This document shows positions 1,410-32,030 of a stretch of 33,834 nucleotides of DNA, piece by piece. The stretch lies in the IMG/VR virus record IMGVR_UViG_3300042987_001661, positions 1 to 33,834 of that record, one strand, 5' to 3'. The stretch comes from a virus. The position numbers and the translations under genes were made by a program. The first letter of the stretch is position 1. Every line of letters starts with the position of its first letter. The notes under the pieces were generated by a model. That model worked only from the letters and a program-made list of their open reading frames with translations, did no database searches and was not told where the DNA came from.

Positions 1410-2344
1410 TATACTCCTTCATAGGGTACATTGTCTAATGTATTGAGAATTTCATTATTGAGACTAGACTCAATAGAGGGACGATAGCGCATCCCCGGCA
1501 TTCCACCTTGTCCAATAAATTGAACCATTAAATATGAATATCTATTAGCGTTACTAGAAGGTGAAATTACATTGCTGATTGTTTGTCCAACATTAGTTGT
1601 ATCAGATGTAGCTTGTGTAGATCCAGACGATGAGCTTTTTGTTTGTGAGCCAGCATCATAAATTCGGCTAGCTCCATAACCCATTCTTGTATCTGTTGGT
1701 TTGATATCATTAATTACAATTTTACCCCAGTATCTGTTTGGAGATCCGAGAAGATCTCCATTATGATTGGCAACATACGTATATGTATTCCAGTTAACTA
1801 AATCACCCTGTTTTAACCATGTATAGCCAGTAGCAGCAACAGGTACGGAGATTCCAGATCTCACAAATGAAGCTCTTGCAACATATTTGCCAATATTTGG
1901 ACTATTAGGCATCTGCTGTACTTCAGATAAGCTTAATCCAGTATCTTGATCATACTTATTCGCTACATTAGCTGTGCGACCAGATCTCTTACACGTTATA
2001 GCTAAATAAAATCCATCAAGTACAATAGCTGAGTTAGCCCCGGATGCTGCGGTTCCAGTAATCGGATCAATACTAGTTGTTTCTTGCCGTGCAGAAGCGC
2101 AAGAAAGATGAACTTTATACCATCCAGTATATGGTGCGCGAAATACATCAATACACAATGGACTAATTTGTGTAGGATTATTTCCCGGCATAGACTCAAA
2201 GACAGTTCTCATTACAGACAAAGCTAAAACAGGACCTGCTGATGAAGCAACAAGATTATAATTCTCAACGTCATTGAGTACCATCTGATTGAATGTCTGC
2301 GATTGAAGCGGGGAAGTAGGTGTCCACTTGATTGACTTATACAT
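1409..2344 (-). CDS. Minor tail protein, third of three tandem relatives
   Basis: A 311-residue protein with no family I can name confidently. It begins with a short Trp/Pro motif (KWTPTSPL) and a predicted helix containing FNQMVLND, closely resembling the openings of the two genes upstream. The rest looks beta-rich, with many Tyr, Trp, Ser and Asn residues, as in phage tail-tip or receptor-contact proteins. A Ser/Thr/Asn-rich linker lies near residues 235-270. The ending MPGMRYRPSIE..NNEILNTLDNVP is unlike its neighbours. Its ATG overlaps the previous stop by one base and its own stop overlaps the HNH start by one base, so translation is probably coupled. Its place after the hub gene supports a tail-tip component. 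A role in receptor binding is inference only. Confidence 0.7.
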   Translation of the reverse strand: MYKSIKWTPTSPLQSQTFNQMVLNDVENYNLVASSAGPVLALSVMRTVFESMPGNNPTQISPLCIDVFRAPYTGWYKVHLSCASARQETTSIDPITGTAASGANSAIVLDGFYLAITCKRSGRTANVANKYDQDTGLSLSEVQQMPNSPNIGKYVARASFVRSGISVPVAATGYTWLKQGDLVNWNTYTYVANHNGDLLGSPNRYWGKIVINDIKPTDTRMGYGASRIYDAGSQTKSSSSGSTQATSDTTNVGQTISNVISPSSNANRYSYLMVQFIGQGGMPGMRYRPSIESSLNNEILNTLDNVPYEGV

Positions 2345-3264
2345 TATGGCCTCGTTGGCTCCATAGCATTATATGGATGATTTTCATATGCTTCATATAG
2401 TGGTGAAATTGATGGATCATCAATAACACCAGATGCAACACCCGATGGCTTTTCTACTTGACCACAATCTTCTACCGAGAAATATGCATTATATTGTGAA
2501 ATACCCTCTAAATTATAAGTTGTAGTGCTATTTTTATATTGAATTGGTAAATGATATACTGGCTGATTGCTTCCGCTACAATCCATTAGCTGGGGAGGAA
2601 CGACTCCGCCATAGCAATTCATTGGTCTATATTGCACTTTAATGATTGATTGACCGCTAGTTTTTGCACCCATTGCCCTTACAGCATGGCAGGAACTAGG
2701 TACTCCTCCCCTAAATGACTCGCTATTCCAGTCCCAAATATTACCATCGTAATTAAAAGATGTATCTCTAATGTAGTAATTCGATGTCGAAATAGCTCCA
2801 ACTCCACCCATATTATAATCAGCATCCACATAGTTTGTCCAATAAATTAAATCATGTCTATGTGTAACATCTCTTACTCTAATTTCTATACGTCCAGTTC
2901 TCCCTCCAAAAGAAGAAATTGGATGCGATAAATTATCGTCAGCGGTCCATACATAATCAAAATGTAGAGTAAATTTATAATATCTATTAGCTTGAAAATT
3001 AACACTAAATTTATTTGTATTAGGCTCAGTAAATTGAACATCTAACCAGTCTACTGAATTATATCTACCGTATGTAGATCCAAAACCGCTAACGCTATAG
3101 TTAGGAATATCTGTCTGTAAATTATTACATATACCCAATGCTTGTATTCCTAAAGCATTTTTTTCAATATCTGCTCTATTTGAGTCATCATTATCTGACA
3201 TCTGCTGTAGGAACTTACTATTAATTCTAGAGAATGTTGCGATATTAGGCTGTTGGATCGGCAT
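2344..3264 (-). CDS. Minor tail protein, second of three tandem relatives
   Basis: I choose the ATG at 3264 (307 residues, starting MPIQQPNIATF) because AAGGGGAG lies 8 bases upstream. The frame stays open further upstream to 3321, but that region has no ribosome site and overlaps the preceding gene more deeply. With this start the gene still overlaps the upstream gene by 20 bases. The N-terminal helix contains FLQQMSDND, resembling LQDMLQND and FNQMVLND in the flanking genes. The middle is beta-rich with YKFTLHFDYVW and RIEIRVRDV segments typical of jelly-roll or similar sandwich folds. The C-terminal part has many Tyr and Pro residues. A virion protein of the tail tip is likely from context; the fold and ligand are unknown. 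Confidence 0.7.
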   Translation of the reverse strand: MPIQQPNIATFSRINSKFLQQMSDNDDSNRADIEKNALGIQALGICNNLQTDIPNYSVSGFGSTYGRYNSVDWLDVQFTEPNTNKFSVNFQANRYYKFTLHFDYVWTADDNLSHPISSFGGRTGRIEIRVRDVTHRHDLIYWTNYVDADYNMGGVGAISTSNYYIRDTSFNYDGNIWDWNSESFRGGVPSSCHAVRAMGAKTSGQSIIKVQYRPMNCYGGVVPPQLMDCSGSNQPVYHLPIQYKNSTTTYNLEGISQYNAYFSVEDCGQVEKPSGVASGVIDDPSISPLYEAYENHPYNAMEPTRP

Positions 3265-4267
3265 TAATTTTCTCCCCTTGTACGATATCGTCTTCTTTAT
3301 AGTATATAATATTAGCCACACTACCGCAATCTGAAACTATAAATTGCGCTGTTGGGATTGACCCAGCAAATGGTGAATCAAAATTACTCCAAGTTTCTGG
3401 GTCTAAAACTGGCTGAAACCCGGGGATAGAGTTTGTTGCACCAGTATAAGTTTGTTTTGTAGGGGGATTATTACCAATTTGCTGCGTAAAATCAGATAAA
3501 TTGTACTTACCAGCTGCAGTAACTTCTCCATAATTCCAGTTATTATAAATATATTGATCTGGCTCAGAGGTACCAGATGGACGGGAATTATATGTATTTC
3601 TATTTTGTTCCCAAATTTCTAATGCAAGGGCATTTTCCGACTTCCACATAACCTCATATATGTGCGGACCTTGCCCCGGGTCAAAGTCAATAGCATCCAT
3701 ATAAAAAGAATGTGTTGACCTTGAGAGTTGATCGTTACCAGCACCACCAACATCATTATTAACTGTCCAAATATCTACCCAAGATTCAGATGTTATATCT
3801 ACTCCATCACGTACAAACTTGAATCCCGATATGGCCCAAGATGAATCATTGGTAGCCTCAGCAACAGTTCCTCCGGGGGTTGTGGTATCTGTGATTTTAG
3901 GATTACCATGAGATAGCAAAGGAATATATAATTGTAATTGTATTATTCTAGCTGGTAACACATTGACTGAGACTGATAGTCCATTAGGATTAATTTGCCA
4001 GTTATCATAGACGCGGGACCAATCTCTTAAGGTCTCTGTCGGATTTTTTGTACTCGTAAAAGCAATAGCATTAAATCCATCGGTTACATCACGGTACCCT
4101 TTTGTAGCTGTATTAGAAGCATACATAGTTAAGTCAGCACAACCCAAAATACCCCTAGGTCTAGCCAATACTTCATCTGCAACAGTTTGATCGTTTTGAA
4201 GCATATCTTGTAATTTATCTAGCGATATTGGCTCTGATGTCCAAGAAACTGGTTTATAGTTTTCCAT
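3245..4267 (-). CDS. Minor tail protein, first of three tandem relatives
   Basis: A 340-residue protein whose ATG overlaps the hub stop by one base (TAATG), with AGAGGG upstream inside the hub gene. It starts with VSWTSEPISLDKLQDMLQND, the same style of N-terminal motif as the next two genes. The central part contains alternating hydrophobic strands (LSVSVNVLPARIIQLQLYIPLL) and a GFKFVRDGVDIT segment consistent with a beta-sandwich. Several Trp, Tyr and Asn-rich loops follow (residues 215-270). Genes in this position, directly after a tail hub, commonly encode small tail-tip or adhesin proteins. I do not recognise a specific family, so the functional label comes from synteny plus the weak similarity to its two neighbours. 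Confidence 0.7.
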   Translation of the reverse strand: MENYKPVSWTSEPISLDKLQDMLQNDQTVADEVLARPRGILGCADLTMYASNTATKGYRDVTDGFNAIAFTSTKNPTETLRDWSRVYDNWQINPNGLSVSVNVLPARIIQLQLYIPLLSHGNPKITDTTTPGGTVAEATNDSSWAISGFKFVRDGVDITSESWVDIWTVNNDVGGAGNDQLSRSTHSFYMDAIDFDPGQGPHIYEVMWKSENALALEIWEQNRNTYNSRPSGTSEPDQYIYNNWNYGEVTAAGKYNLSDFTQQIGNNPPTKQTYTGATNSIPGFQPVLDPETWSNFDSPFAGSIPTAQFIVSDCGSVANIIYYKEDDIVQGEKINADPTA

Positions 4268-7200
4268 TATGAAACCCTCTTAAGTGTTAAAGTTTGTTCG
4301 ATACCGCCATTATATGATAATGATATCGACATAATCCAATATTCATTATTTTCGATAGACATTCTATCTAATGAATTAATTTCAATTCTATCACCTAATT
4401 GTAGTTGCGGTATACCCATTGTTTGCACTTGAATTGTTGGGATTGGTGATGAGTATTTTGATAGCAAATATTGTGCTAAGTCTTTAGCAAATGCAGCATC
4501 TGTAATTAATGGATTATCAATTTCTAGTATCTTTTCGCCATAGCGTCTAATATTATCCACATAATCCTTAGAAACTTCTACAATATTTTGTTTATTCTTT
4601 TCAGTATTCTGAACTACGACACCAGCAACATGAAAGTAGTTATCTAATTTTGTTACAGGGTTATTTCCTTCTAAAACTAGATATTTATTAGCTGGTACGG
4701 CGCTCGCTGACGGGTATAACTTGATCCTGCCCTTAGAGCCGTCAAATTTCCACTCAGATGCCTCTACGGTTTTATCAAATATAATGCTAGTTAAGAATGG
4801 ATACTTAACATATAAAACTGGACTACCTGACCATTCCATCATGAATTCTCTAGATTCTCCAACGGTAGATCCAGATAAGTGAGCCTGCGCTACAGTGTTC
4901 CAGTAACCACGTTCTAAGTCAAATAACATAGATCCAGAACTCTTATTGAATTTAATAAATTCATTATTGATTTTAATTATACCACTTTCGGGAAACAGCG
5001 GCTCATATTCACCAGCGGGATTCAGTGTTCTATTGATCTGCAGTGAAGTAGCCGAGGCAGAAATTCCTAAAGCTAATGTAGAGATAGCTAGTGAAGTACC
5101 CGAGTCCGCAGCCCATATCTGAGTAGTGCCAGCCCCCTGAGTTAATGGTGGATATACCTTAACTACAACTTTATTAACTTGTAATTCTACATTTTGATTG
5201 GCTGATTTGATATCTTGATTTTGATCTAATGTATATTGTACATTAGATTGTCTATAAGATAATGTATCGTCATAGGTTCTTCCGTGCTCATATATAAAGT
5301 GATTATTCTCATCAAAGTAGAACATACCAATATCAGCAGTGGCGATATTTAACATTTCGGTCCAGTATGAATCTGACCCAGCAGCTAATGCACTATAAAC
5401 GTATTGACGTATACTTCTACCTCTTTCATAGTGCTGACGTATCCATGATAGATTAGACAAAGTTTCTGATGGGGTAAGCGCGACCATACCTGTACTTGGC
5501 TTATTATATACAGCAATATTAGATATATAACCACTAAGTGATGAACTGCCGATATAAAAAGTATTGGCTCCATAGTATGGCTCTGTGCTAAAACCACAAT
5601 ATGTATTAACTTGACCATCAACAAATATTTGCACTACATATGTAGCAGCCGCTACATCATAAAATAAAACAGTTACAATATGATGCCATTCATTCAAGCT
5701 TAAGGCAGAACCTAAAGAATTTAGTGTCGGAATAGCATTATTAATATAAAAATATAATTTTTGATCAGTTCCAATTCTTACTGACCATTCACCATTGCCT
5801 CCAGAAGTCTCGGTATCTCCATATCTAAATAATTTTGTTAGTGAAGACACAGATGTAAACTTAAACCATCCCTCTAAAACAACAGCATCTGACCATTGAT
5901 CAGTATAAAATTCATAAGAATCATATCGTAGATATAATTCATTATTATAATATTGATTAGTTTGTATAGATTTTTCTATCTCTGAAGAGATTGGTGAATT
6001 AGTATTAAATGATGGATAATAGTTTATATCAAATTCATTTACTACTGATGTGCCTATGGTAAGATTCATATTTTGACCGAGGCCAGACGAATCCTCAATC
6101 GAGAGATTTCCTACCTTCTTCCACAGGGTCGCATCGATCGGAGAAGTAGTTTTGTTTTTAGTATAGGCATAAAGATGATTCTTATTCTGTCCAGAGTTTG
6201 GAATTACATTTAATTTTTGCGTTCCAGAATTTTTATAAGCATAGCCGCTATCTCTAAAGTCTTCATAGCTAAAAAATCTACCCTGATTAAGAGGCCAGTA
6301 TGCAATTAATTCATCTGATGGTTGATCGATATGAGAATTATTTGCACCATATCCAGCTTTATTGTAATGATAATAAATCTCGTCAAGAGGTAAGGCTCGT
6401 TTATAAATTGCAATTTCTGCTAGCTTAGGATAGATATTATTTCCAAAGTTCCCACCACCTATTATCAATGCGGCTGGTGGTGTCGCTTGTGCCATATAAG
6501 ATCCTGATGGAATTATACCAGTGCCAGCAAGTATGCCGTCTATATAAAGATTTAGTTGAGCCCCTACTGCGGTAACTGCAATGTGGTGCCATTTAAAGGT
6601 ACTTAAGCTCTCACTGCTGATTACACCGTAACCATTGCCAGTCGTAGTGTATACCCAAAAAACCAATTTTCCATCAGTTTGAAATTCAACTTTCCATTCA
6701 TTTTCTGATTGTGATGCACCCATTTTAGATATCAGATTAGATGTTGATGATGGCAGATATTGATAATTAAACCAAAACTCCAATGTAAAATTAGCACTAC
6801 GATTTAATGAATTAGGGAATAAACTAAAATCATAAGCACTATATCCACTATTTCCTCCTACCGATCCCTCATAGGGGGTTATAGAAGTATTAGAAATAGA
6901 AATAGATGGTATAACATTAGTAGTTCCATCCTTATCAAATCGTAAATGTAAACTATATGGGTCAGTTAAAATTGGACCAGACCAATAAGTTTGACAAGAT
7001 TCAGATCCTGTTATTGAGACGGAGCCATTCCGATCATAACCAGAACGATCACGAACAAATAAATTATTATTTGAATTAACATATTCTTGAAAATTCCAAT
7101 ATCCTACTGGCTTACTATCTAAGATAGTATCTTTATATTTGCTAGGATTATATGCATATCTTTTGTCTAATCTAGATGAGGAATTCATTTGATTAGAGAG

Positions 7201-10200
7201 AGTCTGATATCCGGTTATCGTTGTCACTTTTCCGGGTCCAAATAATTTAATCTCTCTTAAGAATCCTTGAAATATACTATTAACATTAATACTATGTGGA
7301 GCAGTAGCTACATTATTTACTACAGTATGAGGATACATACCCGCCCCAATCAGTAACTGACCTGATGGCTTTCTCGTTGGTGCTAACCCCGTAGCCCAAT
7401 TAAAATATTCTTCCTTGCCGTCGATGGTAATAATTAATCCGGTGCCATCTCTACTAGAATCTAAGCCAATACCGATATGATGCCATTTGCTATCCGTAAC
7501 TGTAGTTGGTCCAGTGATTCCATTTGTATCTATCAGCGATTGATCAGCTGATAACGCAAATCTTTGAGTTTTATAGCTTGTAGACGTCGTATTATTGCTA
7601 TAGGATTGACCTCCAACTGCATATGCAGTAGCCGTTCCATCTCCTACTACTGAATACGAACTTCTCTTATATGTTGTCATAGTAGCTATATTTGTAGTAG
7701 TCCAAGTATCAGTAGCAATATCATATCTAAATGTATATTGTCTATTAGTTATACCACTATTTTCTATGGTTCCAACAAGATAAATATAGTTACCAAGAGC
7801 AACTAATCTACTCTCCTGATAGAGTGCGGCATTAAAGTTAATTCCACTCAATGTTGTCCATGATAATGTAGTCGTATCGAAGACCCAAAAAAATTCATTA
7901 TTTGATGTGCTACTTTCAGTTTTCATTACATAAATTTTATTACCCACTACTGCACATATCACATTATTTAAATTAGTTATTCCTGATGGGAATCCGTAGC
8001 CATAGTTAGGTGATATTAACGATGGATGTGACCAAGTATTAGTAGAAGAAGTCCATGATGAAATAGAATAATTTGTTCCAGCATAGGTACCACCTATCAT
8101 CCATAATTTATTATTACAGGCTATTAACATATAACTAGTTAATCCGGAACGTGGAAAATCAGCACGTGTAGTCCAAGTATTAGAACTAGGATCAAACTCC
8201 TGTAATTTAATATTAAAGGAGCTAGCAGGGTAGTCTTCCCAGCCGCACATATAAAATTTACCATTTAATACGGCTCCAGTTTGAGAGTAATCATCACTAA
8301 AACATGAATAAGTTGATCCATTTAAGATAGTCCAAGTATTATTCGATGTATCATATACATATAAATCTCTTCTATCTCGCTGATTAATTTTTACTGCATC
8401 CGTATTATTAGCAGATTCACTATTAATGGAATAACCACCACCAACATAAATTTTTCCATTAAGATATCCAACAGCTGGATTAGTTAGTCCATAATTACCA
8501 CTAACAGAAGTTAATTTTGTAGAAGGTAGGGGTGCGATTGCACTACCACTAGAGGTATTGTCTGACCATTGTCCGCCCAATCCTATACTACCGTTTAATT
8601 GTTGTGTTTGAATATTAATCTTTCCTGAATTATTTACTCTAACAACAAAATCAGATGCATAATTTTTTGTTGAATAATTAAAAATAGTTTTACCGTTTGC
8701 TGCACTATCTGCCTTCATCCAAAATGTCAATGAAAAGGCCGATTCTGGGAAGTCATAAAATGTTCGCGGAAGGACTGCTCTAGATGCGTATGTTACATTT
8801 TGATTGACGCCATTTATATTATTATTATAAAGATCTGCAAATGGATGACTATATAGATAAACGTTACCATCAAAATACATTCCATAATTTAATATTTCAG
8901 ATTCATTCATACGCCAAAAGCCAAATGGTTTATCTTTAAGTACAGTTTTAACGTAATTATCTTCAATATCGATATTAGATAATGGAACACCGCTTCTTAA
9001 AGCTAAATCTTTAATTGCTTCACCAGCTGTTACAGATTCTGCGAGGTAACCATCAACAATGGTTCTATCCTGCATTTTTCCACTCGTATCTCGACATGAG
9101 ACATCTACCGACATGTTATCTGTGCTAATGGCCCAAGTATCAGAATAATATGTACCCTGCGGTATGAACTCATTATTTATGATGAAACCTATATCAAATT
9201 TAACACCCGGAGTTATATAGTTAGAAATACTACTATTAATATTTTGAGGGTTATATTTAAGATCTACATTACTTAATGTTAAATTAAGTGTATTTGCTGC
9301 AGTAGCACCTAGCGGTACGCTTGAATCAAAATTCTCTCTAACCTTAGAGATTTCCATCGATACCACATCAGAGGATATATCTTCAGTATATCTTGGTGCA
9401 AATTCCTGTACTCTGGCGGCATCATATCCAAATTCAGTATGCGTAATATTAACAGCAAGTCCTGACATAAGTGTAGGCTGACCAAGGTCGTATTCGAACA
9501 TTCCATTGCCTAAATTGGTTGCAGAACCTAAATCTTGCCAAGCCCCATTTTCATCTTTATAATATGCAGTCCAATCTGTTACTGCACCGTACTTCGTAGA
9601 AGTGGCAAAATCAATATAGTTAGCATTTACCTGATCGAATAGTAAATAAATCCAAACATCATCTTGCATAGTTCCGTTATAGTCACTATGAGCCTTGGAC
9701 CACCATCCATATTCATAGTCGGTATACTGAATTGTCTGTTCACGCTCAGAGATAAAATAATCCCCATTAGCAGTAATAATATTGCCGGTTTCATCGAAGG
9801 CATCTAATACACCCCAAGTGAGCGTATGTTCTTTCTGTCCGTTAATAACTTGTTTAGCATCATTAAACTTAGTAATAACTTTATTACCAAATATACTTAA
9901 TGGAGTAGAGATATTAATTGCACTAGCTGCTATATAATCGGCCATTAAGTCAATATTTTTATTAGCTACAAAAAACTCACTTACTATAACATTTTTCAGT
10001 CCGTTTCCACCATTATTAGGACCATAGCCGATACGTATAACATCGGGATAAGATGTAATGACATTAAAGTTAGCACCAGATGGCATCGCTATAAAGGTAC
10101 TAGTAGTGTTATCTGGAGAATTTATATTGCTATCAACAAGCAAATATAAATTATTATCTTTAAAAGTAAGTGTAATATGATGCCAAGTATTAATAGCTAG

Positions 10201-11751
10201 ATCGGCACTAAATGGAGTAGTATATGCAGAAGAGCCCTTGTATACAGTAGCATAAACTTGCATAGTACCTGAGGATTGCTTATTTAATTTTAACTCCCAT
10301 CCTTTGGTAGAGTTTGTGGTTGCAGTTATGCTTCCGTAATATGCTAATATTTCTGTTGCATTTGTCGTTGGAGCAGCTGTTGGATAAATCCACATCGATA
10401 CCCCTAGAGCGTTTCCAGATGTAGGAGTTTGAGAAGTGAAGTACTGACTTATCGGGATACGTCTATCTGTTTCAATAAAGGCATACGCTCCATCGATAAA
10501 TTTAACTCCACCACTATCCCTTCTTTCGACCACTGAAGAGGATGAGTTGGGATTAAAATTAAATGGAGATAAAGTTTGATTCCCATTCTTAGGTCTAAAG
10601 TTCATATATGACATATTCATATTAGACTCTGACTGTAGATAGGTGTTAATATAGCCATTATTAGATTTTGATGAGGCATCTAAGATGCCATGAAATGGCT
10701 GTATATCTGTCTGAGGTGAGATGGCTACTCGCGTTGAACTACGCGAGCTAACACGAAAAGCCCCAGAATGCCACCTTTTATGAACATCTGTAATATTCAG
10801 AGTATCATTATAAATAACAATTTCATCAATTAAGCCAGTAAATCTATGATACTCATTGTCATATGTAGAACTATTATAAGAATAATATCCGGTACCAATA
10901 TAAAGATTTCCAGAAGCTTCATCTTTCAGGTTTCCATTTATAATATTTTTTGAACCTGAGACGACTCCTTGTAAATACATTACTAACTCTTTGCCGTTGA
11001 ATGTTACAACACAGTGATACCAACGATTAGAAGAAATGGCTACATTAGATTTAACTTCCATATATACATTTGAATAATCATCATTAGCTTTATATCCAGA
11101 ATAAATATCGTTAAAAATTGTAAATTTTGGACGCATCTCCCCCGACTTAGTTTCTACTGACATGATCCAGTCGGATCGATTCATAACTGTTGTCTTATAC
11201 ATTAGATAATAGTCACCAGCAGTCGTAATCATTGAAGATCCGGTTTTTACTTGAAACCAGCACTCAACAGTGAAATTTGGATTATCTATCATAGACCATC
11301 TATTTTCAAGATCAAGTTGCGCCGATTTAGCGTAGCCATCACCTGTAGTATTAAATTCAATCGCCTTTGAAACTATACCATTATTATCTTGAACTACTCC
11401 GATACTTTGATAAATATAGTTAGTATTTCTCGTTCCAACCATATTGAGATTACAATATCCAGTTTCATCATAAACTACATCTGTTACAGGTATTGCTGCT
11501 GTATTCATACGCCAATGTGTAACTGGTTTTGGTCCCGTATTTACATTATCAATATAGTCAAATGATTCATTTAATCTATAATATATAATAGGTTGTAAAC
11601 TTTGAATATACTCTCGATAATCATCCGATGAAGAGTAAGCTTTTACGTTAGTTAATGTTTTACCATTGACCCATTCGGCAACGACAGAAGGGGACGCTGA
11701 CTGAGCGTCCTCCTTAATATAGTCAATAGTAGATTGAGTCAACTCTTGCAC
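4267..11751 (-). CDS. Giant tail hub/tip protein with inserted laminin-G and kelch domains
   Basis: This 2494-residue protein starts at a GTG (AAGGAGC upstream) that overlaps the previous stop as TAGTG. Hub-type tail-tip sequence appears twice: around residues 790-935 (with AGEAIKDLALRSGV) and 2100-2494 (MFYFDENNHFIYE, LAQYLLSKY, LQLGDRIEI, NNEYWIMSISLSYNGG). Between and before these I see five concanavalin A/laminin-G-like domains. Their conserved strands are RWYH near 243, TWHH near 522, KWHH near 1422, KWHH near 1720 and EWHH near 2021. Many begin with openers such as GFWRMNE, GYWNFQE or AYWPLNQ. The third contains a six-bladed kelch propeller at about 1085-1400. These additions probably bind host surface glycans or proteins. 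The C-terminal hub part likely seals the tail tube. No peptidase or lysozyme motif was noticed. The domain assignments are strong; the ligand is unknown. Confidence 0.88.
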   Translation of the reverse strand: MQELTQSTIDYIKEDAQSASPSVVAEWVNGKTLTNVKAYSSSDDYREYIQSLQPIIYYRLNESFDYIDNVNTGPKPVTHWRMNTAAIPVTDVVYDETGYCNLNMVGTRNTNYIYQSIGVVQDNNGIVSKAIEFNTTGDGYAKSAQLDLENRWSMIDNPNFTVECWFQVKTGSSMITTAGDYYLMYKTTVMNRSDWIMSVETKSGEMRPKFTIFNDIYSGYKANDDYSNVYMEVKSNVAISSNRWYHCVVTFNGKELVMYLQGVVSGSKNIINGNLKDEASGNLYIGTGYYSYNSSTYDNEYHRFTGLIDEIVIYNDTLNITDVHKRWHSGAFRVSSRSSTRVAISPQTDIQPFHGILDASSKSNNGYINTYLQSESNMNMSYMNFRPKNGNQTLSPFNFNPNSSSSVVERRDSGGVKFIDGAYAFIETDRRIPISQYFTSQTPTSGNALGVSMWIYPTAAPTTNATEILAYYGSITATTNSTKGWELKLNKQSSGTMQVYATVYKGSSAYTTPFSADLAINTWHHITLTFKDNNLYLLVDSNINSPDNTTSTFIAMPSGANFNVITSYPDVIRIGYGPNNGGNGLKNVIVSEFFVANKNIDLMADYIAASAINISTPLSIFGNKVITKFNDAKQVINGQKEHTLTWGVLDAFDETGNIITANGDYFISEREQTIQYTDYEYGWWSKAHSDYNGTMQDDVWIYLLFDQVNANYIDFATSTKYGAVTDWTAYYKDENGAWQDLGSATNLGNGMFEYDLGQPTLMSGLAVNITHTEFGYDAARVQEFAPRYTEDISSDVVSMEISKVRENFDSSVPLGATAANTLNLTLSNVDLKYNPQNINSSISNYITPGVKFDIGFIINNEFIPQGTYYSDTWAISTDNMSVDVSCRDTSGKMQDRTIVDGYLAESVTAGEAIKDLALRSGVPLSNIDIEDNYVKTVLKDKPFGFWRMNESEILNYGMYFDGNVYLYSHPFADLYNNNINGVNQNVTYASRAVLPRTFYDFPESAFSLTFWMKADSAANGKTIFNYSTKNYASDFVVRVNNSGKINIQTQQLNGSIGLGGQWSDNTSSGSAIAPLPSTKLTSVSGNYGLTNPAVGYLNGKIYVGGGYSINSESANNTDAVKINQRDRRDLYVYDTSNNTWTILNGSTYSCFSDDYSQTGAVLNGKFYMCGWEDYPASSFNIKLQEFDPSSNTWTTRADFPRSGLTSYMLIACNNKLWMIGGTYAGTNYSISSWTSSTNTWSHPSLISPNYGYGFPSGITNLNNVICAVVGNKIYVMKTESSTSNNEFFWVFDTTTLSWTTLSGINFNAALYQESRLVALGNYIYLVGTIENSGITNRQYTFRYDIATDTWTTTNIATMTTYKRSSYSVVGDGTATAYAVGGQSYSNNTTSTSYKTQRFALSADQSLIDTNGITGPTTVTDSKWHHIGIGLDSSRDGTGLIITIDGKEEYFNWATGLAPTRKPSGQLLIGAGMYPHTVVNNVATAPHSINVNSIFQGFLREIKLFGPGKVTTITGYQTLSNQMNSSSRLDKRYAYNPSKYKDTILDSKPVGYWNFQEYVNSNNNLFVRDRSGYDRNGSVSITGSESCQTYWSGPILTDPYSLHLRFDKDGTTNVIPSISISNTSITPYEGSVGGNSGYSAYDFSLFPNSLNRSANFTLEFWFNYQYLPSSTSNLISKMGASQSENEWKVEFQTDGKLVFWVYTTTGNGYGVISSESLSTFKWHHIAVTAVGAQLNLYIDGILAGTGIIPSGSYMAQATPPAALIIGGGNFGNNIYPKLAEIAIYKRALPLDEIYYHYNKAGYGANNSHIDQPSDELIAYWPLNQGRFFSYEDFRDSGYAYKNSGTQKLNVIPNSGQNKNHLYAYTKNKTTSPIDATLWKKVGNLSIEDSSGLGQNMNLTIGTSVVNEFDINYYPSFNTNSPISSEIEKSIQTNQYYNNELYLRYDSYEFYTDQWSDAVVLEGWFKFTSVSSLTKLFRYGDTETSGGNGEWSVRIGTDQKLYFYINNAIPTLNSLGSALSLNEWHHIVTVLFYDVAAATYVVQIFVDGQVNTYCGFSTEPYYGANTFYIGSSSLSGYISNIAVYNKPSTGMVALTPSETLSNLSWIRQHYERGRSIRQYVYSALAAGSDSYWTEMLNIATADIGMFYFDENNHFIYEHGRTYDDTLSYRQSNVQYTLDQNQDIKSANQNVELQVNKVVVKVYPPLTQGAGTTQIWAADSGTSLAISTLALGISASATSLQINRTLNPAGEYEPLFPESGIIKINNEFIKFNKSSGSMLFDLERGYWNTVAQAHLSGSTVGESREFMMEWSGSPVLYVKYPFLTSIIFDKTVEASEWKFDGSKGRIKLYPSASAVPANKYLVLEGNNPVTKLDNYFHVAGVVVQNTEKNKQNIVEVSKDYVDNIRRYGEKILEIDNPLITDAAFAKDLAQYLLSKYSSPIPTIQVQTMGIPQLQLGDRIEINSLDRMSIENNEYWIMSISLSYNGGIEQTLTLKRVS
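7552..8499 (-). repeat. Six kelch repeats (beta-propeller) inside a laminin-G domain
   Basis: Six kelch-type units of about 50-60 residues lie at protein residues 1085-1400 of the hub gene. Each has a hydrophobic strand followed by a Gly motif: IYVGGG 1101, FYMCG 1166, LWMIGG 1216, IYVMK 1273, IYLVG 1323 and AYAVGG 1376. Five are followed by a Tyr/Phe-Asp strand and a Trp in contexts such as NTWT, LSWTT or DTWTT. The sixth lacks the Trp and may be closed by a strand at about 1060-1078. The propeller sits between the early strands of laminin-G domain 3 (FSLTFWMKAD near 1006) and its late WHH strand near 1423. In domain 5 the comparable gap is about 20 residues. Confidence 0.82.
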
Positions 11752-12143
11752 TACTGCTCCTTCAATGTTAATTCAACGTCATAATAAATATTATTAGATA
11801 CATAGTCTCGACGGATGATCTTTTCACTATATGAATCTACCCAAACCGTATAGGTATTAGATGAACCAATTGGTGATCTCACAATAAGCGTTATAGTGTC
11901 TTGCTTATCGGAGAGCGTTTTTAAGAAGTCCCTCGCGGCCTTACCATCGAAAGTCTGATTTGTAAGATTTGGAAGCATTGTCCAATTGAGAGAAAAGGTA
12001 TATTTCACATCCATGAAATATTTTTTCGTAATACCGCTCGCCAACTGAACCTGAACAGAAGTTTCCTCCCTATTGGAGGAGAAAGTTCTACCCTGATCTG
12101 TTACTTCAGTCCCGTCCAAGGAAATTAAATTGGGTAAAGCCAT
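11751..12143 (-). CDS. Small tail protein after the tape measure (possible distal tail component)
   Basis: A 130-residue, beta-rich protein with the opening LPNLISLDGTEV, then alternating strands (SVQVQLASG, MDVKYTFSLNW) and a C-terminal YVSNNIYYDVELTLKEQ. Its ATG overlaps the tape-measure stop by one base and its stop overlaps the hub GTG by one base, so the three are translationally coupled. In siphophages the slot between tape measure and hub is usually taken by a distal tail (Dit) protein or a small minor tail protein. The length is shorter than classical Dit proteins (about 250 residues or more), so it may represent only a Dit-like ring domain. The function is assigned by position, and I do not recognise the family by sequence. 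Confidence 0.7.
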   Translation of the reverse strand: MALPNLISLDGTEVTDQGRTFSSNREETSVQVQLASGITKKYFMDVKYTFSLNWTMLPNLTNQTFDGKAARDFLKTLSDKQDTITLIVRSPIGSSNTYTVWVDSYSEKIIRRDYVSNNIYYDVELTLKEQ

Positions 12144-15100
12144 TAGATCCTACCTGTACGATAATTATTATCTTGATATGAAGAAACTCTTCTATTCATT
12201 GTACCATAAGATCGTTGTTTATTGGGGGCGACCTTGACGCCATATTCAGACATCATCGATTCAAACCATTGCGGTTGACCAATAAAGTTATCTACATAGA
12301 TATTGACTCCACCGGCTTCTTGTGGTTGCATATATGGAGCGCATTCCTTTAAGGCTGCCGTCATTGCTGACTGTATGTTGCCTTCAAAGGAAGCCATAGA
12401 AACACGCGATGGCTGGAACCCATTCGCAAATCCACGCAGGCCATTGGGGAGAGGAATAACGGCTTCGTCATATCTACCCTCACCAATTTGAGCCAAGATC
12501 CCGCCGGAACGTCGTTTTACAATACCACCAGTGGCAAAGCCGGGAACGTTTAATCTTAAATAATCCTCTAATGCTCGTTGTGATGGACCAACCTTGTCCG
12601 GAGCAATCCCAGATTGAATGTCTTTCATTTTAACAAAACTTCTAGCCCCAGAAACCATAATTTTAAAAATATTTTCTAATTCTTTTAACCATTGCGGGGT
12701 ACGGAAGTTCATATTTTTATTCAAGATCTCATCTAACTTTTCTTTCAGTCCAGACTCAATCCCTCCGGTTTCTACCGAGAAGTTGATCTTCAACTTTCCT
12801 CTACGGGTTAAGTCTAAGAATGGACTAATAAGAGCGTTGATCGCCGCCCTGAGCGCAGCAGAGGCATCCGGCGATGTTAATCCTTCTGCTATGCCTTGAG
12901 CCCAGAACTTACCAAATTTTTTGGCTTTGCGGGATGGTGAGCGGCTATCCAAGCCAGCAGGAGAGGCAGTAGTTGTATCCATATAGTTTGTTAAACTTAA
13001 TAATGGATTTTTTAAAATATTAATATTATCTGTTAAACCTTTACTCATTCCCGTGGTAAAGTTTTTACCATGTCTAACTCCAGCTGTACTTGATCCACGT
13101 AAACTTTGTGGATTTTCTAAAGCCCTAATGATATCACGACTATTTGGTTCTCTTATATCATCTCTTTCCCTGCGTCCAGTTCCACGGCCACCTCTTCCTC
13201 GACCACCTCGCGAGCCTTTTCCGGGTGGGGTCTTTGACCATTTTCCATTCTTTAATAAGTACCACTTAGTACCATCTGGAGTGGTACCGTCATATACATC
13301 ATCTCCGGGTATAATGGCCCCTAAAATTCTTTTAATTCCAAGTCTTTGCTCTTGAGTTAAGAATTGTCCCGGTGTTGTGGTTGCTGTTGGAGTAGGCCTA
13401 TTTCTTCCACCAGTTGGCCTTATAGGTCTTATTGGTCCTGTTGGTCCTAAGGGGCCTGTTATTGCTGCTACTGGGCCGCGAGGTCCTGCTGGTCTAGCTG
13501 CTTTTGCCCTTAATACACTAGGCTTTTTAAGTACTAATCTACCGCTACCCAGTAAGTAAAAAAGTTTTTGGCCAGTGTTAGTGAATTGTCGATAATCTGG
13601 AATATCGTCATCGGGTTCACCGGCCCCGGGGTATTCTTTACGACCCTTGAGAGATACTAAATTATAAGCTGTATTACGTTCAAATCTTCTAATGCTTCTT
13701 TGTGTTCTGCTGCGGACTGTATCTGAAGACTTTGGCGGTTTGAATCCAGAGGGAATTGGCGGACCAGCAGGCTCTCGCGGTGTAAGAGAAGTTGATGGAG
13801 GACCAGCCTGCCCAGTTTCAGTAGGGCCAAACAAGAGTGAATCAATAAATTGATCTTTAGTGCCACCATATGCTTTCTTCCAAGCAAGCCACTGAGCGCG
13901 CAATTCTTTATCTCTTTTTCCCAAAAGGACTGCGTGCTTACCGAAAATATTTCCATGATTCATCAAAAATTGATTTCTTTTTCTTGCAGCTTGCTGCATT
14001 TGTGCAGCAGTTATTAACTGATTACGCTGTAATTGCTGTTGTGGTGTTGCAGGAGTCATAGACTGCATTAATGCTTGCGGTGAACCAAGAAGGGTGTCTT
14101 CCCCTTGTCCCTTCGCTGCCGCTGCTGTAAACCAGTTAGCAACCTGTATCTTTCTTTTCTGTACTAATTTTTGATAGTAAGGAAAAATTTTATTTTTTAC
14201 TAAAAATGTTTTAAATTTTTTGCCATTATCACCAGATAATAATTCTTTCCATTTCTCTTCGCTATAATCACTGGCAGCTAAATCACGAATCATTTGACGA
14301 AATATTGAAACTGATTGCTTCCAAGTTAAATTACCGCCGCGCCCGCCTCTACCGCGTTCTCCACCTCGACTCCTCCCCGCTTGGGCTGTAGCGTCGGCTA
14401 CCTCTGCCGCTGACGCTGGTCCTTCGTCCCCCGTACCTGTGGGGCCTCCACCTCCGCCTCCAGCGCCCCCTCCAGCCCCCCCTGCTCCAGCAGTGAATCC
14501 ATCGCCCATAGACTGACCTTGCTGTCTGCCGAGTTCGTAAATAGCATCTTTATAGTTTTGACCACCAATAATTTCCAGCCATCCACGCATTGAGGCGTCA
14601 ACCCACGATCCATTCCAGAAATTGTCATCTTTAACATCGGCGGCAATTTCTGCAATAGACTGTTGGAAGATAGCAAGACCATTTTGCCAAGTGCCTGTTA
14701 TGGTCGGGATACCATAGTTAGCTAATGTATTATTTATTTGATCCATCATCAGGCGCCATTCGGCCTCTGTTTTTGGAGTGTATTTTGTAATTAAATCGAT
14801 TTGATCTTTAAGGGCTTTTTCTTCAATAGCCTTTCGAGCCTCAGCAGCATCTTTTTCAGTATTAATTCTTTCTCTTTGAAGATCACGCGTTTTTTTCAGA
14901 AGTTCTCTAGCCCTAGACTGTTCTATATCTGCAATGCCCTTAGTATTAGATTTATCTGTCTGCGAGAATTCAAGATCCATCATACGTGCGTCATCGATCC
15001 GCCCTTCATAAATTGCTAGAGACCTATTACGTCGATAATTCTCCCTATCCAAGGAGCGCTTCTGCATAGCCTCACGGCGCGACTCAATATATTGCTGTGT

Positions 15101-18100
15101 GGCAAGTAATTCTTCTTCTTTTTTCTCCAGTAAGTCTATCGCTTTAATTTGGTCATCATAAACTTGAAGTCTCTTGCTCCAGACACTATCAATTTCTTGA
15201 GAAATTTGATCTTTTAATTTATTAATAAAATTATCTAATTTTTCTTTTAATTTCTGAAGGAAGGAGTTAAATGCATCTGCCGCTTTACTGGCTGCTCCGC
15301 CACTTCCCGCTCCGGTTTTATCTCCAAATAAGTCAGTAGCCAAATTTTCCTTCGGTTGTGTCAATGCGGCTCTTGATTGTCTATCATTCTTTGATAGTCC
15401 TTCAAGGGTGTATGTAATTTTTCTCTTACCCTCTGAGCCCTTAATGGCATCATCAAGTTTTTTATTGATAGACTTAGATATATCAAATTTTTGTAAAGAT
15501 TTTCCTACACCCAATCCAAGCCAACTAAAGAATCTGCCGACTACCTGAACGGAACGGCTTATAGAACCAAGAAGACCAAAATCTAAAGTTTTAATAACAA
15601 GTTTAGTTGCATATAATACCGTTCTCCAAAGATAACTCCACAATGATTTCCAATCTCCTTGGAATAAAGCGGAAATAACTTGGATAAATGAAACAATCGA
15701 TCCTATCGTTGATCCTAAAATATCTGATAGATATTGAAAGACTGGTTTAAGTATATTAATTAATCCCGCAAATGCACGGACTAATAATCCTACAACTTGA
15801 ATGACACCACTAAAGATTTTCCCAATACTGTTCCAAACATTGCCAACCTCCCGGCCCTGCTCGGCCTGTCCTCCGATAGCCTTGGTGCTGCTCTTAAAGA
15901 TATCTACCACAGACGAGAAAGCCTTCTTCAGTTCACCCCAAGCCTTAGAGAGATACTTTAAGCCACCCTTCATACCCTCAGAAACATCTTTCCAATGTTT
16001 AATTAATAATATTACTGCTCCTGTTATTGCAGCAACAGCTGCTGCTATTATTAAGAGGGGGCCTCCCAGTGTCTGAATTCCACTCAGCACCCCACCGCCA
16101 GCCCCAGTGGCTCCAGCGGCTGCTCCGGCCTCGGCTCCAGCGGCTCCAGCCCCTCCTCCTCCAAGCAATCCACCAGTAAGAAGGCGACCAAGCCCCTTTA
16201 CACCTTTCAATGCTCCGCGCCCTAAGGTTTTAAAGCCAGTTTTTAGGCCACCCCTAGGTAGGACTGGAGGCACCATAGGGACAGGAGGACCATTGACAGG
16301 AAGTAACTGAGACGCTAAAGCCTCTGCTTCCGCCGCTGAAAGGCCGTGAAGTGCAGCAATTTGCTCAAAAATTGCTGCTATTTGCGCTTGTCTAGCTTCA
16401 GTATTTAATTCTATAGATCCAGTAAGTTTGGCTGTTGAGGAAACAAGCCCACTTTGATTAAGTAACTCTGCCGCCTCAGCCTCTGTAAGGCCAGCGAGGG
16501 CTGCTGCCTGCATGTATAGAGATCTAGTTTCATTGTCATTAACTGTTGCTGCTGCATCACTATAGGCTACTCGTGCTGCATCAAGGGCCTGTTGTTGAGC
16601 CGATAATTCAGCCTCTACTGCAATTCGTTTCTGCTCAGCTGCAGTTGCTCTATCTGCCGCCCTTTGTGCTCTCTCAACAGCGAGAGCACGCCTATCTTGT
16701 GCCGCCTGATATTCTGCTGCTGACTGAATGTTATGTTCATTTTCTAACTCTGCTAGTGCTTTTCGTTTTTGCACTTCTTTCTCTTGAAGAGATGTAAGTT
16801 TTTTCTCACTAGCTGCCTGTTCGTCATTTAAAGTTTTTAATGCAGCATTTCTTTCACTTTCAGCAGCTACTACTTCATCTTTAATTGTCTGTAATTCTGC
16901 TTCTAATGCGGCTATATTACTATTTCTATTTGCAATATGTGCTTCATGACCTCGCATTCTATTTTCAATCGCAGTATATTCATTTTCATTAACTGCAATG
17001 CGATTTTCACTACCTCTAATAGCTGCATTTGTTTTTTGAACTTCTAAATTATAAGCTTCATTAATTTCCTCTTGACGCATCGCTGCGGCTGCTTGTCGCG
17101 CTTTGAGGCGGTCGGCATCTTGCTTATACATGCCTCCATCTTTTCTATAGCGAACTCCTGATTCTTCCCGTATTAATGAAAACTCAAGATCTGATTCCAT
17201 CTCTCTTTTGCGGTGTGCAAGATACTCTAAATGGGCTTCTCTACGTCGAATTAGTGTCTGTTCATCTTTAATTTGTCTAGCCTTAGCAACCATTTCATCG
17301 GCGGCCAATTCCTTCTCAGCTACAGCCGCGGCCATAGCGCTTCTTTGAGCAGAAATTTCTTTTTCTTTTGCTGCTTGCCTTGCTGTCAAGGAGTTCATTT
17401 CACTTTGGAAATTACTATTTATGGTATTCAACTGTGATTGTAATTGTTTTTGCGCTGTAATTTCTTTTTGAATCTTAGCCTCTATATCACTTAAGCCAGT
17501 TTTACTTTTATCAATTCGAGTAACGCGTCTATCAAAGGCGCGCTGATTTGCTTCATCTAAACGTGCTACTTTTCTTTTTTCTGAATTTGCAATAGTTTGA
17601 GCAGTAAGCATATTATCTGATTCGGCCGTTTTTGCATTCTCTAATCTGGTTTCAAGACTGGAATATTTACGCTCTTCGGTTTCTACCTTTATAGCGGAGG
17701 CGATTAAACCAGCCCTATCTTGGGCCGCCTTTGTTGCTAGAGCTTCTGCTTCTGCTAATAACTTAGTTGCCTGCTCTGCTTGCATTTCCGTAGCAGCCTT
17801 GTCTCGCAGAGCAATCATTAAATTATCGGTAGCTGTTACGGTTCTTGCTTCTGTATTAGCATATAATTCTGTTTGTGATCGTAACCATATATATCTATTA
17901 CCTAAAGCCATTACATTGCCTTCTAAAGCTCCATTAGCAGCAAGAAGGTTCATTTGCTCTACGGTTAAGAACTTTAATCCCGGGACTAATGAAAATATAG
18001 TTCTAGTGAGGAGACCAAATACAGTACCTAAAGAACTTACTAAGTAAAGTCCCGGCCCTAATAAGGCAAGACCAACAGCAACTGATGCAAATACTGCCTT

Positions 18101-20029
18101 AAACTGAGTAGACATACTAGCAATTTTTTCAAAGAATGAAGATATCGCATGCATTACCTTAAGAAACGCAGGAATAAGAGCTTTACCAATTGAAGCTCCT
18201 GTCATCTTTATTGTTTCCGTTAAAATTCTAAATTGTGTCTCTGGTGAGCGAAGTCTTACCTCAATTTCCGCAGCAGATAATTTACGATATTGATCAGCCA
18301 AGTCTTTTAACTTTTCTTTGCTTAATTCAGTATAGGCTGAGCTTGCAACGATAGCACGACCAAAACCCTCAGTGAGATATTGACTTTGCAGCAATTCTTT
18401 ACGATACTCACCCATAACGCTTTTAAGATCGTCTAACTTAGCAGTTGCTAAATCTACACCATCGGCTTTTAATGTTGACTCTAAACCGGGAATACTTTTA
18501 ATGGCGTCCTTAATTTGAGCAGTACCAGTTATCACCGACTGAACCATTGGAACGAAAGTTTTAATCTGACGACGCTGGACTAGTTCACCGAAGACTTGAC
18601 CAATTTCAGTATAGTTATCTTTTCCTTCCTTGGCTCCTTTATTGGACATCTGCTGATAAAGTTCAGCAATTCGAATAAGTTTTTCCATACCGCCACCGAG
18701 TTGCTGTACGGAACTTAATGTTCCAGCACCGAAGGCAGCATCGAAACGCTCAGCGGCTTGTTTAGTTGGATTTAAGATACGAGTTAAAATAAAGTTAATG
18801 CCTGTTGCCGCAGTATCCAACTGAATACCTTTGTCGTATACACCAGTTAAGATTGATGCCAACTGAGCAGCATTGAGACCGAATAACTTAGCCGCACCAG
18901 CAGCCTTAGGCATGGCTTCAGCTAACTGATTAAGGTTAATAACGGTCTTGTTCTCAATCTGGTTTAACTGGTCAACGATAAAGTTAGTGGCAAGCAACTG
19001 ATCGTTGAATGTCTTAATTCCCGGTTCACCCTGCGTGAAAACCTTCAACATTGTTCTGAAGAAGTCTCTTGATGTATTGAGACCAATGTCACCTAATGTT
19101 GCTGTGAATGCAATAGCCTCAGATAATTTATAGGCTTCTGATGTAGCGCCGCGAATTGAATAACCCATAGTTACAACATCAGCGGTTAATCTTGTTACTG
19201 ACTGTTGCGAGATTCCGAAGGTCTTTACGATACCGGAAACACCGCGCTCCAGCGAGGCTCCATAAGCCTTAAAGTCAGCCGCTCCAGCAACCTTTGCCAT
19301 TCGGGTGAATTCTTTATTGACACTCAAGAACATGTTTACCGCTTTTTTCATGCCAATCATAAGCGGTAAAGTTAGTGTAGTAGTAAGAGTTCTACCCAAA
19401 AATTGAGCATTTTTACCCATCTGCATCATTTGAGTGCCAATGCCCATTAGGGGTTGTTTCAGTGATAATAATCTTACTCTTGCTAACTGAGAAGCAGTTG
19501 CTGCTTGCGTGAAGGATACTGCTTGTCCAGCATTTAATTGGGCTAATTGGGCATTGCCAACCATACCAATGGGGGCCGCTACGGTTCCACCACCGGCACG
19601 TGCCATATAGGCCTGCTGTGTTCCCAATGCACGCAATTGTGTTTGATAACTTGTTGTTAATCCCTTAAGATATCTAGTCTGTCGAATTAACTGACGCAGC
19701 GTGGTGTTTCCACCTGTTCCGAATGAGGCAGAGCCAACGGCCCTTGCGAACATATTATAGGCTGCTGCTTCGGCTCGTAATTCGGCTGCAGCGGCCTTAG
19801 AACTAACAATTAATCCTTGTTGTGCTGCGATTGCTCTTGTTACGCTAAGTTGCGCTATGGCTCCAAATTGTTTATATTCAGATATAGCAGTACGTAATCC
19901 AGCACTGCCGCCGATACCAGCTAACTGCTGTTGGACACTCTGACCTGCGGTACCCAAACTTCTGAGTTCCGCCATCAGTTGTCTTATCCCAGATAAATCA
20001 GCTGTAGTTCTAAATACAAGGTTGGCCAT
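12143..20029 (-). CDS. Tail tape measure protein, 2628 residues
   Basis: The ATG is one base after the chaperone T stop. Residues 215-450 match the TP901-type tape-measure core (TADVVTMGYSIRG, LNQLAEAMPKAAGAAKLFGL, QLASILTGVYDKGIQ). Hydrophobic, membrane-like stretches lie at 646-680 and 1314-1346. A very long Ala/Glu/Gln/Arg-rich coiled coil spans 745-1190 and a second spans 1590-1750. Residues 1845-1898 are Gly-rich. Two Arg-Gly clusters occur at 1887-1899 and 2272-2288, and a GPxGP collagen-like stretch at 2179-2207. The C-terminal FATGGIV..GEGRYDEAVIPLP (about 2498-2528) is the usual tape-measure ending. The family sets tail length and enters the host envelope during DNA injection. At about 1.5 angstrom per residue the whole length would correspond to a tail near 390 nm, an upper estimate because the C-terminal part may be cleaved or folded. 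Confidence 0.95.
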   Translation of the reverse strand: MANLVFRTTADLSGIRQLMAELRSLGTAGQSVQQQLAGIGGSAGLRTAISEYKQFGAIAQLSVTRAIAAQQGLIVSSKAAAAELRAEAAAYNMFARAVGSASFGTGGNTTLRQLIRQTRYLKGLTTSYQTQLRALGTQQAYMARAGGGTVAAPIGMVGNAQLAQLNAGQAVSFTQAATASQLARVRLLSLKQPLMGIGTQMMQMGKNAQFLGRTLTTTLTLPLMIGMKKAVNMFLSVNKEFTRMAKVAGAADFKAYGASLERGVSGIVKTFGISQQSVTRLTADVVTMGYSIRGATSEAYKLSEAIAFTATLGDIGLNTSRDFFRTMLKVFTQGEPGIKTFNDQLLATNFIVDQLNQIENKTVINLNQLAEAMPKAAGAAKLFGLNAAQLASILTGVYDKGIQLDTAATGINFILTRILNPTKQAAERFDAAFGAGTLSSVQQLGGGMEKLIRIAELYQQMSNKGAKEGKDNYTEIGQVFGELVQRRQIKTFVPMVQSVITGTAQIKDAIKSIPGLESTLKADGVDLATAKLDDLKSVMGEYRKELLQSQYLTEGFGRAIVASSAYTELSKEKLKDLADQYRKLSAAEIEVRLRSPETQFRILTETIKMTGASIGKALIPAFLKVMHAISSFFEKIASMSTQFKAVFASVAVGLALLGPGLYLVSSLGTVFGLLTRTIFSLVPGLKFLTVEQMNLLAANGALEGNVMALGNRYIWLRSQTELYANTEARTVTATDNLMIALRDKAATEMQAEQATKLLAEAEALATKAAQDRAGLIASAIKVETEERKYSSLETRLENAKTAESDNMLTAQTIANSEKRKVARLDEANQRAFDRRVTRIDKSKTGLSDIEAKIQKEITAQKQLQSQLNTINSNFQSEMNSLTARQAAKEKEISAQRSAMAAAVAEKELAADEMVAKARQIKDEQTLIRRREAHLEYLAHRKREMESDLEFSLIREESGVRYRKDGGMYKQDADRLKARQAAAAMRQEEINEAYNLEVQKTNAAIRGSENRIAVNENEYTAIENRMRGHEAHIANRNSNIAALEAELQTIKDEVVAAESERNAALKTLNDEQAASEKKLTSLQEKEVQKRKALAELENEHNIQSAAEYQAAQDRRALAVERAQRAADRATAAEQKRIAVEAELSAQQQALDAARVAYSDAAATVNDNETRSLYMQAAALAGLTEAEAAELLNQSGLVSSTAKLTGSIELNTEARQAQIAAIFEQIAALHGLSAAEAEALASQLLPVNGPPVPMVPPVLPRGGLKTGFKTLGRGALKGVKGLGRLLTGGLLGGGGAGAAGAEAGAAAGATGAGGGVLSGIQTLGGPLLIIAAAVAAITGAVILLIKHWKDVSEGMKGGLKYLSKAWGELKKAFSSVVDIFKSSTKAIGGQAEQGREVGNVWNSIGKIFSGVIQVVGLLVRAFAGLINILKPVFQYLSDILGSTIGSIVSFIQVISALFQGDWKSLWSYLWRTVLYATKLVIKTLDFGLLGSISRSVQVVGRFFSWLGLGVGKSLQKFDISKSINKKLDDAIKGSEGKRKITYTLEGLSKNDRQSRAALTQPKENLATDLFGDKTGAGSGGAASKAADAFNSFLQKLKEKLDNFINKLKDQISQEIDSVWSKRLQVYDDQIKAIDLLEKKEEELLATQQYIESRREAMQKRSLDRENYRRNRSLAIYEGRIDDARMMDLEFSQTDKSNTKGIADIEQSRARELLKKTRDLQRERINTEKDAAEARKAIEEKALKDQIDLITKYTPKTEAEWRLMMDQINNTLANYGIPTITGTWQNGLAIFQQSIAEIAADVKDDNFWNGSWVDASMRGWLEIIGGQNYKDAIYELGRQQGQSMGDGFTAGAGGAGGGAGGGGGGPTGTGDEGPASAAEVADATAQAGRSRGGERGRGGRGGNLTWKQSVSIFRQMIRDLAASDYSEEKWKELLSGDNGKKFKTFLVKNKIFPYYQKLVQKRKIQVANWFTAAAAKGQGEDTLLGSPQALMQSMTPATPQQQLQRNQLITAAQMQQAARKRNQFLMNHGNIFGKHAVLLGKRDKELRAQWLAWKKAYGGTKDQFIDSLLFGPTETGQAGPPSTSLTPREPAGPPIPSGFKPPKSSDTVRSRTQRSIRRFERNTAYNLVSLKGRKEYPGAGEPDDDIPDYRQFTNTGQKLFYLLGSGRLVLKKPSVLRAKAARPAGPRGPVAAITGPLGPTGPIRPIRPTGGRNRPTPTATTTPGQFLTQEQRLGIKRILGAIIPGDDVYDGTTPDGTKWYLLKNGKWSKTPPGKGSRGGRGRGGRGTGRRERDDIREPNSRDIIRALENPQSLRGSSTAGVRHGKNFTTGMSKGLTDNINILKNPLLSLTNYMDTTTASPAGLDSRSPSRKAKKFGKFWAQGIAEGLTSPDASAALRAAINALISPFLDLTRRGKLKINFSVETGGIESGLKEKLDEILNKNMNFRTPQWLKELENIFKIMVSGARSFVKMKDIQSGIAPDKVGPSQRALEDYLRLNVPGFATGGIVKRRSGGILAQIGEGRYDEAVIPLPNGLRGFANGFQPSRVSMASFEGNIQSAMTAALKECAPYMQPQEAGGVNIYVDNFIGQPQWFESMMSEYGVKVAPNKQRSYGTMNRRVSSYQDNNYRTGRI

Positions 20030-24130: not shown

Positions 24131-24159
24131 ATTATACTCTCTTTCTGACTAAATGCCAT
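24131..24159 (-). promoter_or_regulatory. Candidate leaderless promoter before the connector cluster
   Basis: TATAAT (24136-24131, mRNA strand) lies exactly 6 bases before the ATG at 24124, which would place the first transcribed base at or next to the start codon. ATGGCA (24159-24154) sits at the ideal 17-base distance and matches the -35 consensus at 4 of 6 positions. The only purine-rich tract upstream (AGAAAGAGAG) is 12 bases from the ATG and overlaps the spacer, so it would be a poor ribosome site. The -35 overlaps the end of the preceding gene. The spacing equals that of the promoter at 28811-28819. Confidence 0.5.
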
Positions 24160-32022: not shown

Positions 32023-32030
32023 ATATATTC

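Follow-up and report, generated by a model that had tools for sequence, protein, structure and literature searches.

A putative kelch propeller nested in a laminin-G domain of a split phage tail hub

That the Tal hub of a phage tail may be decorated with additional domains is known. In siphophages of Gram-positive bacteria carbohydrate-binding modules are inserted in Dit as well as in the gp27-like domain of Tal, giving rise to “evolved” Dit and Tal (PMC7291167), and the hub of the cyanophage A-1(L) contains a lysozyme, an endoglucanase and a peptidase domain, with hydrolysis of host cells being observed for the endoglucanase and the peptidase (PMC10966104). Here we describe a tail hub (Tal-like) protein of 2494 residues encoded by the IMG/VR virus record IMGVR_UViG_3300042987_001661. 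The analysed stretch, designated “the window”, comprises 33.8 kb (positions 1 to 33,834). According to the list of open reading frames (ORFs) and the translation, the protein is the product of one uninterrupted ORF on the minus strand (11751-4267) starting with GTG. It is a hub of the gp27/Tal/VgrG type which is split by an insertion.

As in evolved Tal and Dit, where loops of either the gp27-like hub or the galectin domain of Dit likewise accommodate adhesive modules (PMC7291167), the presence of an extra module within the gp27-like domain becomes evident from homologues which lack the insert. Compared to these proteins, however, the insert of the window protein is as large as about 1145 residues, is composed of laminin-G (LamG) domains and appears to harbour a whole kelch propeller inside one inserted domain. 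While the decorated hub as such is known, the depth of nesting and the occurrence of kelch in a hub are new. In the open-licence literature we found no description of a propeller within a sandwich within a hub, nor of a hub family whose LamG domains repeatedly host further domains, nor any paper dealing with kelch together with phage tails and laminin G. Kelch propellers, which are best known from eukaryotic adaptor proteins, would join the folds carried within a phage tail hub.

The hub core and its outer insertion

The hub gene directly follows the gene of the tape measure protein and one small gene, an arrangement typical of gp27/Tal/VgrG-type hubs and found in the window, in Stanwilliamsviridae and in further relatives. 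The tape measure protein (12143..20029, minus strand, 2628 residues) was assigned by PHROG tape-measure families. The small gene (11751..12143, minus strand) codes for a minor tail protein of 130 residues (phrog_1194) with an equivalent place in Stanwilliamsviridae; our guess is that it might constitute a minimal Dit. Within the 2494-residue protein itself, PHROG matches to minor-tail and tail-protein families are C-terminal, while a kelch-matching structural protein family is hit in the middle.

A tblastn search against annotated phages yielded matches solely to Streptomyces phages, via residues 731-953 and 2294-2494. In these phages, which belong to the Stanwilliamsviridae, the tape measure gene is followed by a gene for about 130 residues and then by one for a minor tail protein of 1061-1067 residues, as in the window. 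We regard these proteins (gp37/38/41/63 of Muntaha, Annadreamy, Moab, Yaboi and BillNye) as orthologous hubs. Gene order is equal over the 33.8 kb compared; the identity to the window amounts to 52-53% for the major capsid protein, 44% for the portal and 23-32% over the hub parts. A profile made from the five hubs matches the window protein in colinear fashion at residues 781-916, 2126-2275 and 2294-2493. The first two of these blocks are separated by about 30 residues in the Streptomyces phage proteins versus 1210 residues in the window, so that the former, having no insert at this site, represent the empty site of the outer insertion. They do carry a distinct block of about 330 residues (~543-873) in hub part 2, for which weak concanavalin-like Pfam matches were obtained.

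Further relatives were reached via matches of the major capsid protein and a subsequent hub search of the respective records, followed by a later profile search which led to about 65 unique hub relatives; a search of viral contigs with the whole protein had given no match. The preliminary description of this DNA had recognised hub-type sequence at residues 790-935 and 2100-2494, separated by about 1150 residues of laminin-G-like domains. Hidden Markov models (HMMs) agree well with this and place hub part 1 at residues ~786-950 (8902..9396, minus strand; Stanwilliamsviridae hub HMM and family HMM) and hub part 2 at residues ~2098-2494 (4267..5460 including the stop codon, minus strand; about 65 unique family members). 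Hub part 2 is 61-65% identical to its counterparts in the close relatives L107, L118 and L119. The stretch of about 1145 residues between both parts accommodates three LamG domains and the kelch block.

The hub fold itself was examined in an AlphaFold2 model of residues 486-1409 of the orthologue L177, which bears a single LamG domain in its hub (pLDDT, the predicted local distance difference test, 74.4; pTM, the predicted TM score, 0.72). A fold search with this model retrieved about 30 hubs with Z scores of 15-23 and about 300 residues aligned over the model range 141-924, bridging the insert. Among them are the hub of Agrobacterium phage Milano (Z 22.9), VgrG1 (Z 21.7), Mu gp44 (1wru; Z 20.0) and T4 gp27 (1k28; Z 17.6), with hubs of contractile injection systems falling into the Z 17-23 group. 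As no more than about 160 of the roughly 300 aligned residues can come from hub part 1, both hub halves are needed for the match; in L177 at least, the two parts do form hub domains. A PDB sequence search with hub part 2 retrieved no hub, and hubs surfaced through the fold search alone. Also matched was the Anabaena phage A-1(L) hub gp15 (8kea; Z 20.9, chain residues 12-714), in which large extra domains lie between parts of the hub core as well. In contrast to the window protein, these domains are enzymes, are described in series and un-nested, and belong to a myophage. The fold search also listed receptor-binding domains of botulinum toxins, and the Pfam family Toxin_R_bind_N was matched, which might suggest a toxin; both reflect the shared LamG-like sandwich, and we rejected this reading.

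Scanned as a whole, the protein matches Pfam LamG_3 in five stretches (2.3e-55; 187.3 bits versus a cut-off of 27.6). Four domains exceed the cut-off singly, while the two halves of the split LamG3 do not. Given as Pfam cores, all on the minus strand, these four are LamG1 (residues 146-323; 10783..11316; Laminin_G_3 4.7e-15), LamG2 (442-542; 10126..10428; 2.7e-9), LamG4 (1645-1792; 6376..6819; 2.7e-24) and LamG5 (1958-2085; 5497..5880; 2.5e-10). LamG1 and LamG2 are located N-terminally of hub part 1 and are followed by a putative discoidin (F5/8 type C)-like jelly roll at residues 640-785 (9397..9834, minus strand), none of which had been mentioned in the preliminary description. The discoidin-like region has no Pfam match in the window protein; the assignment draws on the equivalent position in the aligned Stanwilliamsviridae hubs, where such a domain likewise precedes the hub and F5_F8_type_C matches below threshold, and on the beta-rich nature of this region in the L177 model. 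The outermost N-terminal segment (residues 1-45; 11617..11751, minus strand) is conserved with 49-62% identity to L107, L118 and L119, and an AEW-like motif is discernible by eye at the N-terminus of the Stanwilliamsviridae hubs too.

The kelch block and its empty site

Residues 1055-1408 (7528..8589, minus strand) are assigned to a kelch propeller (Pfam kelch 7.4e-19; PDB kelch chain 9tsn 7.3e-13). The scores of PF24681 (68.4 bits), Kelch_6 (48.6 bits) and Kelch_1 (38.9 bits) lie above the respective cut-offs of 50, 25.3 and 20.1, and in the whole-protein scan several Pfam kelch families cover residues 1092-1381. An AlphaFold2 model of residues 935-1640 is confident for the kelch part alone (~1085-1355), which resembles kelch propeller structures with Z scores of 18-20 in a fold search. 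The six kelch units claimed at the outset are readable in the sequence, yet the model provides five confident blades only, the sixth (SYSVVGDG..AYAVGGQ..YKTQRFAL) being recognised by its sequence pattern. Judging from the sequence, the N-terminal strand GGQWSDNT probably completes this blade.

The kelch block interrupts LamG3 in the loop between the strand ending in GKINIQ and the WHHI strand. A profile built solely from the LamG3 domains of three kelch-less relatives (L107, L118 and L119) matches the first half (residues 936-1054; 8590..8946, minus strand) with its positions 3-126 (E 1.3e-45) and the second half (residues 1409-1513; 7213..7527, minus strand) with its positions 131-233 (window residues 1409-1508; E 5.7e-22), hence leaving a distance of 4 profile positions. 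Pfam LamG_3 is split correspondingly into positions 13-62 and 68-124. As both profiles break at the kelch block, residues 1055-1408 constitute an insertion of about 354 residues in one LamG loop. In kelch-less L118, Pfam LamG_3 (151 positions) is matched unbroken from 13 to 150 with 57.5 bits, and the LamG3 profile crosses LamG4 and LamG5 of the window protein without any large gap, in line with the short gap which had been noted for domain 5.

Homologues devoid of the kelch block but retaining the surrounding LamG domain, a search for which had been proposed, do exist. The orthologues L107/L115/L116/L117 (2145 residues), L118 (2148 residues) and L119/L120 (2180 residues) are colinear over the whole length, and only the kelch block is missing. 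The G005/L107 protein aligns to residues 1-1048 and 1411-2494 of the window protein with 12 residues in between. These alignments show the kelch block to be an insertion into LamG3 with natural empty sites in relatives. A tree calculated from hub part 2 groups the window with L107, L118 and L119 in one clade (100/100), within which kelch is confined to the window; its gain on the window branch is therefore the simplest reading. None of the about 65 unique hub relatives contains a further kelch block, and tblastn against annotated phages gave no match to it. Relatives of the block in viral contigs are 25-30% identical, none of them originating from this hub family, and among annotated families the block matches generic kelch families best. 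No flanking direct repeats were detected at the kelch junctions; those found sit inside the kelch units. Two unrelated viral contigs, L207 (5355-9782) and L208 (5067-8894), each encode a phage tail protein with a kelch propeller (phrog_376), which we note as an independent use of this fold on a phage tail. Unlike in the window, their kelch part is situated towards the C-terminus, and a different PHROG family is matched by the tail-protein part.

Taken together, we consider it likely that one scenario accounts jointly for the hub, its insert, the adhesive nature of the modules and the lineage-specific gain. The protein would serve as baseplate hub (Tal, gp27/VgrG type) in a probably long-tailed actinobacteriophage with a distant relationship to Stanwilliamsviridae. 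The core of the hub, presumably a trimer as in other members of the family, would seal and open the tail tube. One surface loop of this core (~950-2098) would bear three LamG domains in series, the first of which bears the six-unit propeller. As the two ends of a propeller adjoin, a loop can take it up while the fold around it stays intact. The N-terminal LamG/discoidin domains, together with the LamG domains and kelch of the insert, would project from the hub as swappable adhesive modules contacting glycans or proteins of the cell surface, and the propeller would have been gained in the window lineage after its split from the three kelch-less relatives.

Several observations weigh against this scenario. 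The hub fold was modelled on L177, which is only ~32% identical to the hub parts of the window. The sole match in bacterial and archaeal genomes is L210, a contig of an archaeal metagenome-assembled genome (NZBO01000058.1). No second contig carrying the kelch junction was found among the viral contigs searched. In addition, while the structure prediction proposed for residues 930-1510 worked well for kelch, both LamG3 halves show pLDDT values below 50, so that the propeller-in-sandwich arrangement rests on sequence homology rather than on the model. It should be mentioned that several of the alignments used as model input misplaced the second LamG half; the final alignment avoided most of this.

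The poor definition of the halves, together with their weak individual Pfam matches (2.9e-4 and 0.017), could indicate that kelch is flanked by a complete LamG domain on either side, with no nesting at all. This is highly improbable, however, since the halves cover complementary profile positions and relatives carry the equivalent LamG3 unbroken. Similarly, the restriction of the kelch junction to a single metagenome contig might point to an assembly chimera, to which we assign an equally slight probability: the ORF of 2494 codons stays in frame through kelch, the break is located in a LamG loop, a place at which an insertion would be favoured by selection, GC3 (the GC content at third codon positions) of kelch is 0.19 compared to 0.18-0.28 in its neighbours, and nested inserts recur elsewhere in the hub family. 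A hub split by LamG domains, with LamG3 in turn split by kelch, thus stands as originally proposed.

Inserts in the hub family and their putative function

The same hub site is occupied by LamG or by PA14 plus LamG in dozens of relatives, and the insert varies widely in size. It is absent in L181, comprises ~220-310 residues in six relatives (five of them were scanned individually, and LamG was recognised in three), ~410-450 residues in most relatives (those scanned contain PA14 and/or LamG), ~530-545 residues in three and ~805-860 residues in L107, L118, L119 and L148, compared to 1145 in the window. A value of 272 residues for L002 turned out to be an artefact, as the last hub block alone had been matched. 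Within one hub this amounts to a ladder from no insert via one LamG, PA14 plus LamG and three LamG to three LamG with nested kelch, which permits mapping of the insertion tolerance of the hub and of the effect of each step on host recognition.

Nesting of this depth had been called uncommon. This holds for kelch, which is limited to the window protein, but not for nesting into hub LamG domains as such, which recurs in the group. L148 (8225-9556) and L180 contain 438 extra residues inside the LamG of the hub insert; in L112 and L135, which are 58-70% identical and have no gap at this position, the site is empty. L139 (~815-927) and L147 (~780-898) share a block of about 115 residues in the hub LamG loop region which is missing in their sisters L133 and L138. 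These two blocks are 75% identical as opposed to 46% for the hubs overall, a difference which suggests that a nested module has moved horizontally. Pfam names no family for the nested blocks of either pair; by eye, the shorter one looks cupredoxin-like and the longer one concanavalin-like, which we regard as leads. We slightly favour the view that the hub LamG domains serve as sockets whose loops have been entered independently by unrelated folds, some of them moving between phages, which would make up a two-level exchangeable receptor-binding system.

WhiB is encoded in 21 of 22 relatives' records, and a control search in 14 genomes matched in Corynebacterium only; the hosts are therefore probably Actinobacteria. 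For the same reason a binning error is the more likely, albeit not proven, explanation for the archaeal placement of L210. Between the window and its close relatives the LamG domains are 28-47% identical compared to 54-65% for the hub core, and the downstream exonuclease reaches 84-85%. The capsid protein of L013 is 87% identical to that of the window; that of L009 is 95% identical, yet identity drops to 35% over hub residues 1-602. The faster divergence of LamG fits host-facing parts, and we infer that the LamG and kelch modules bind the host.

Alternatively, LamG and kelch could be spacers or provide contacts for further tail-tip proteins. Binding to proteins is frequent among kelch propellers, the best fold matches of the kelch model include KLHL and Keap1, and three more genes for about 320 residues each lie 3' of the hub gene. 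Close relatives without kelch, however, keep these three genes at 43-55% identity, so that kelch is not needed for assembly in those relatives, and inserts vary widely at one and the same hub site. We thus deem this role unlikely. Marginally less probable still is that the kelch block acts as an enzyme, e.g. a NanM-type sugar mutarotase or epimerase modifying host glycans rather than binding them. Enzyme-bearing hubs have a precedent in A-1(L) (PMC10966104), and NanM/mutarotase families (2.1e-8 to 9.7e-7) as well as PF24996 (4.5e-8) match the block weakly. Yet the NCBIfam and NANM matches all fall far short of the curated thresholds (33.7 of 243 bits), and kelch repeats are known to cross-match one another. 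Binding of the host by these modules remains our preferred reading.

Neighbouring genes

The three genes 3' of the hub gene (1409-4267, minus strand) encode successive proteins of 311-340 residues, and their order is kept in relatives. They have no Pfam match and no detectable paralogy to one another. Between these tail-tip genes and the exonuclease gene an HNH endonuclease gene is located (972-1409, minus strand), which has an equivalent location in L115, L118 and L120 with 69-78% identity. A protein of 875 residues encoded between head and tail genes (24149-26776, minus strand) matches neither Pfam nor PHROG; by eye it possibly includes a sandwich domain, and its C-terminal half consists of GSISSSS-type repeats. 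Finally, a head maturation protease-type protein of 712 residues (29920-32058, minus strand) exhibits a zinc-ribbon stretch at residues ~560-590.

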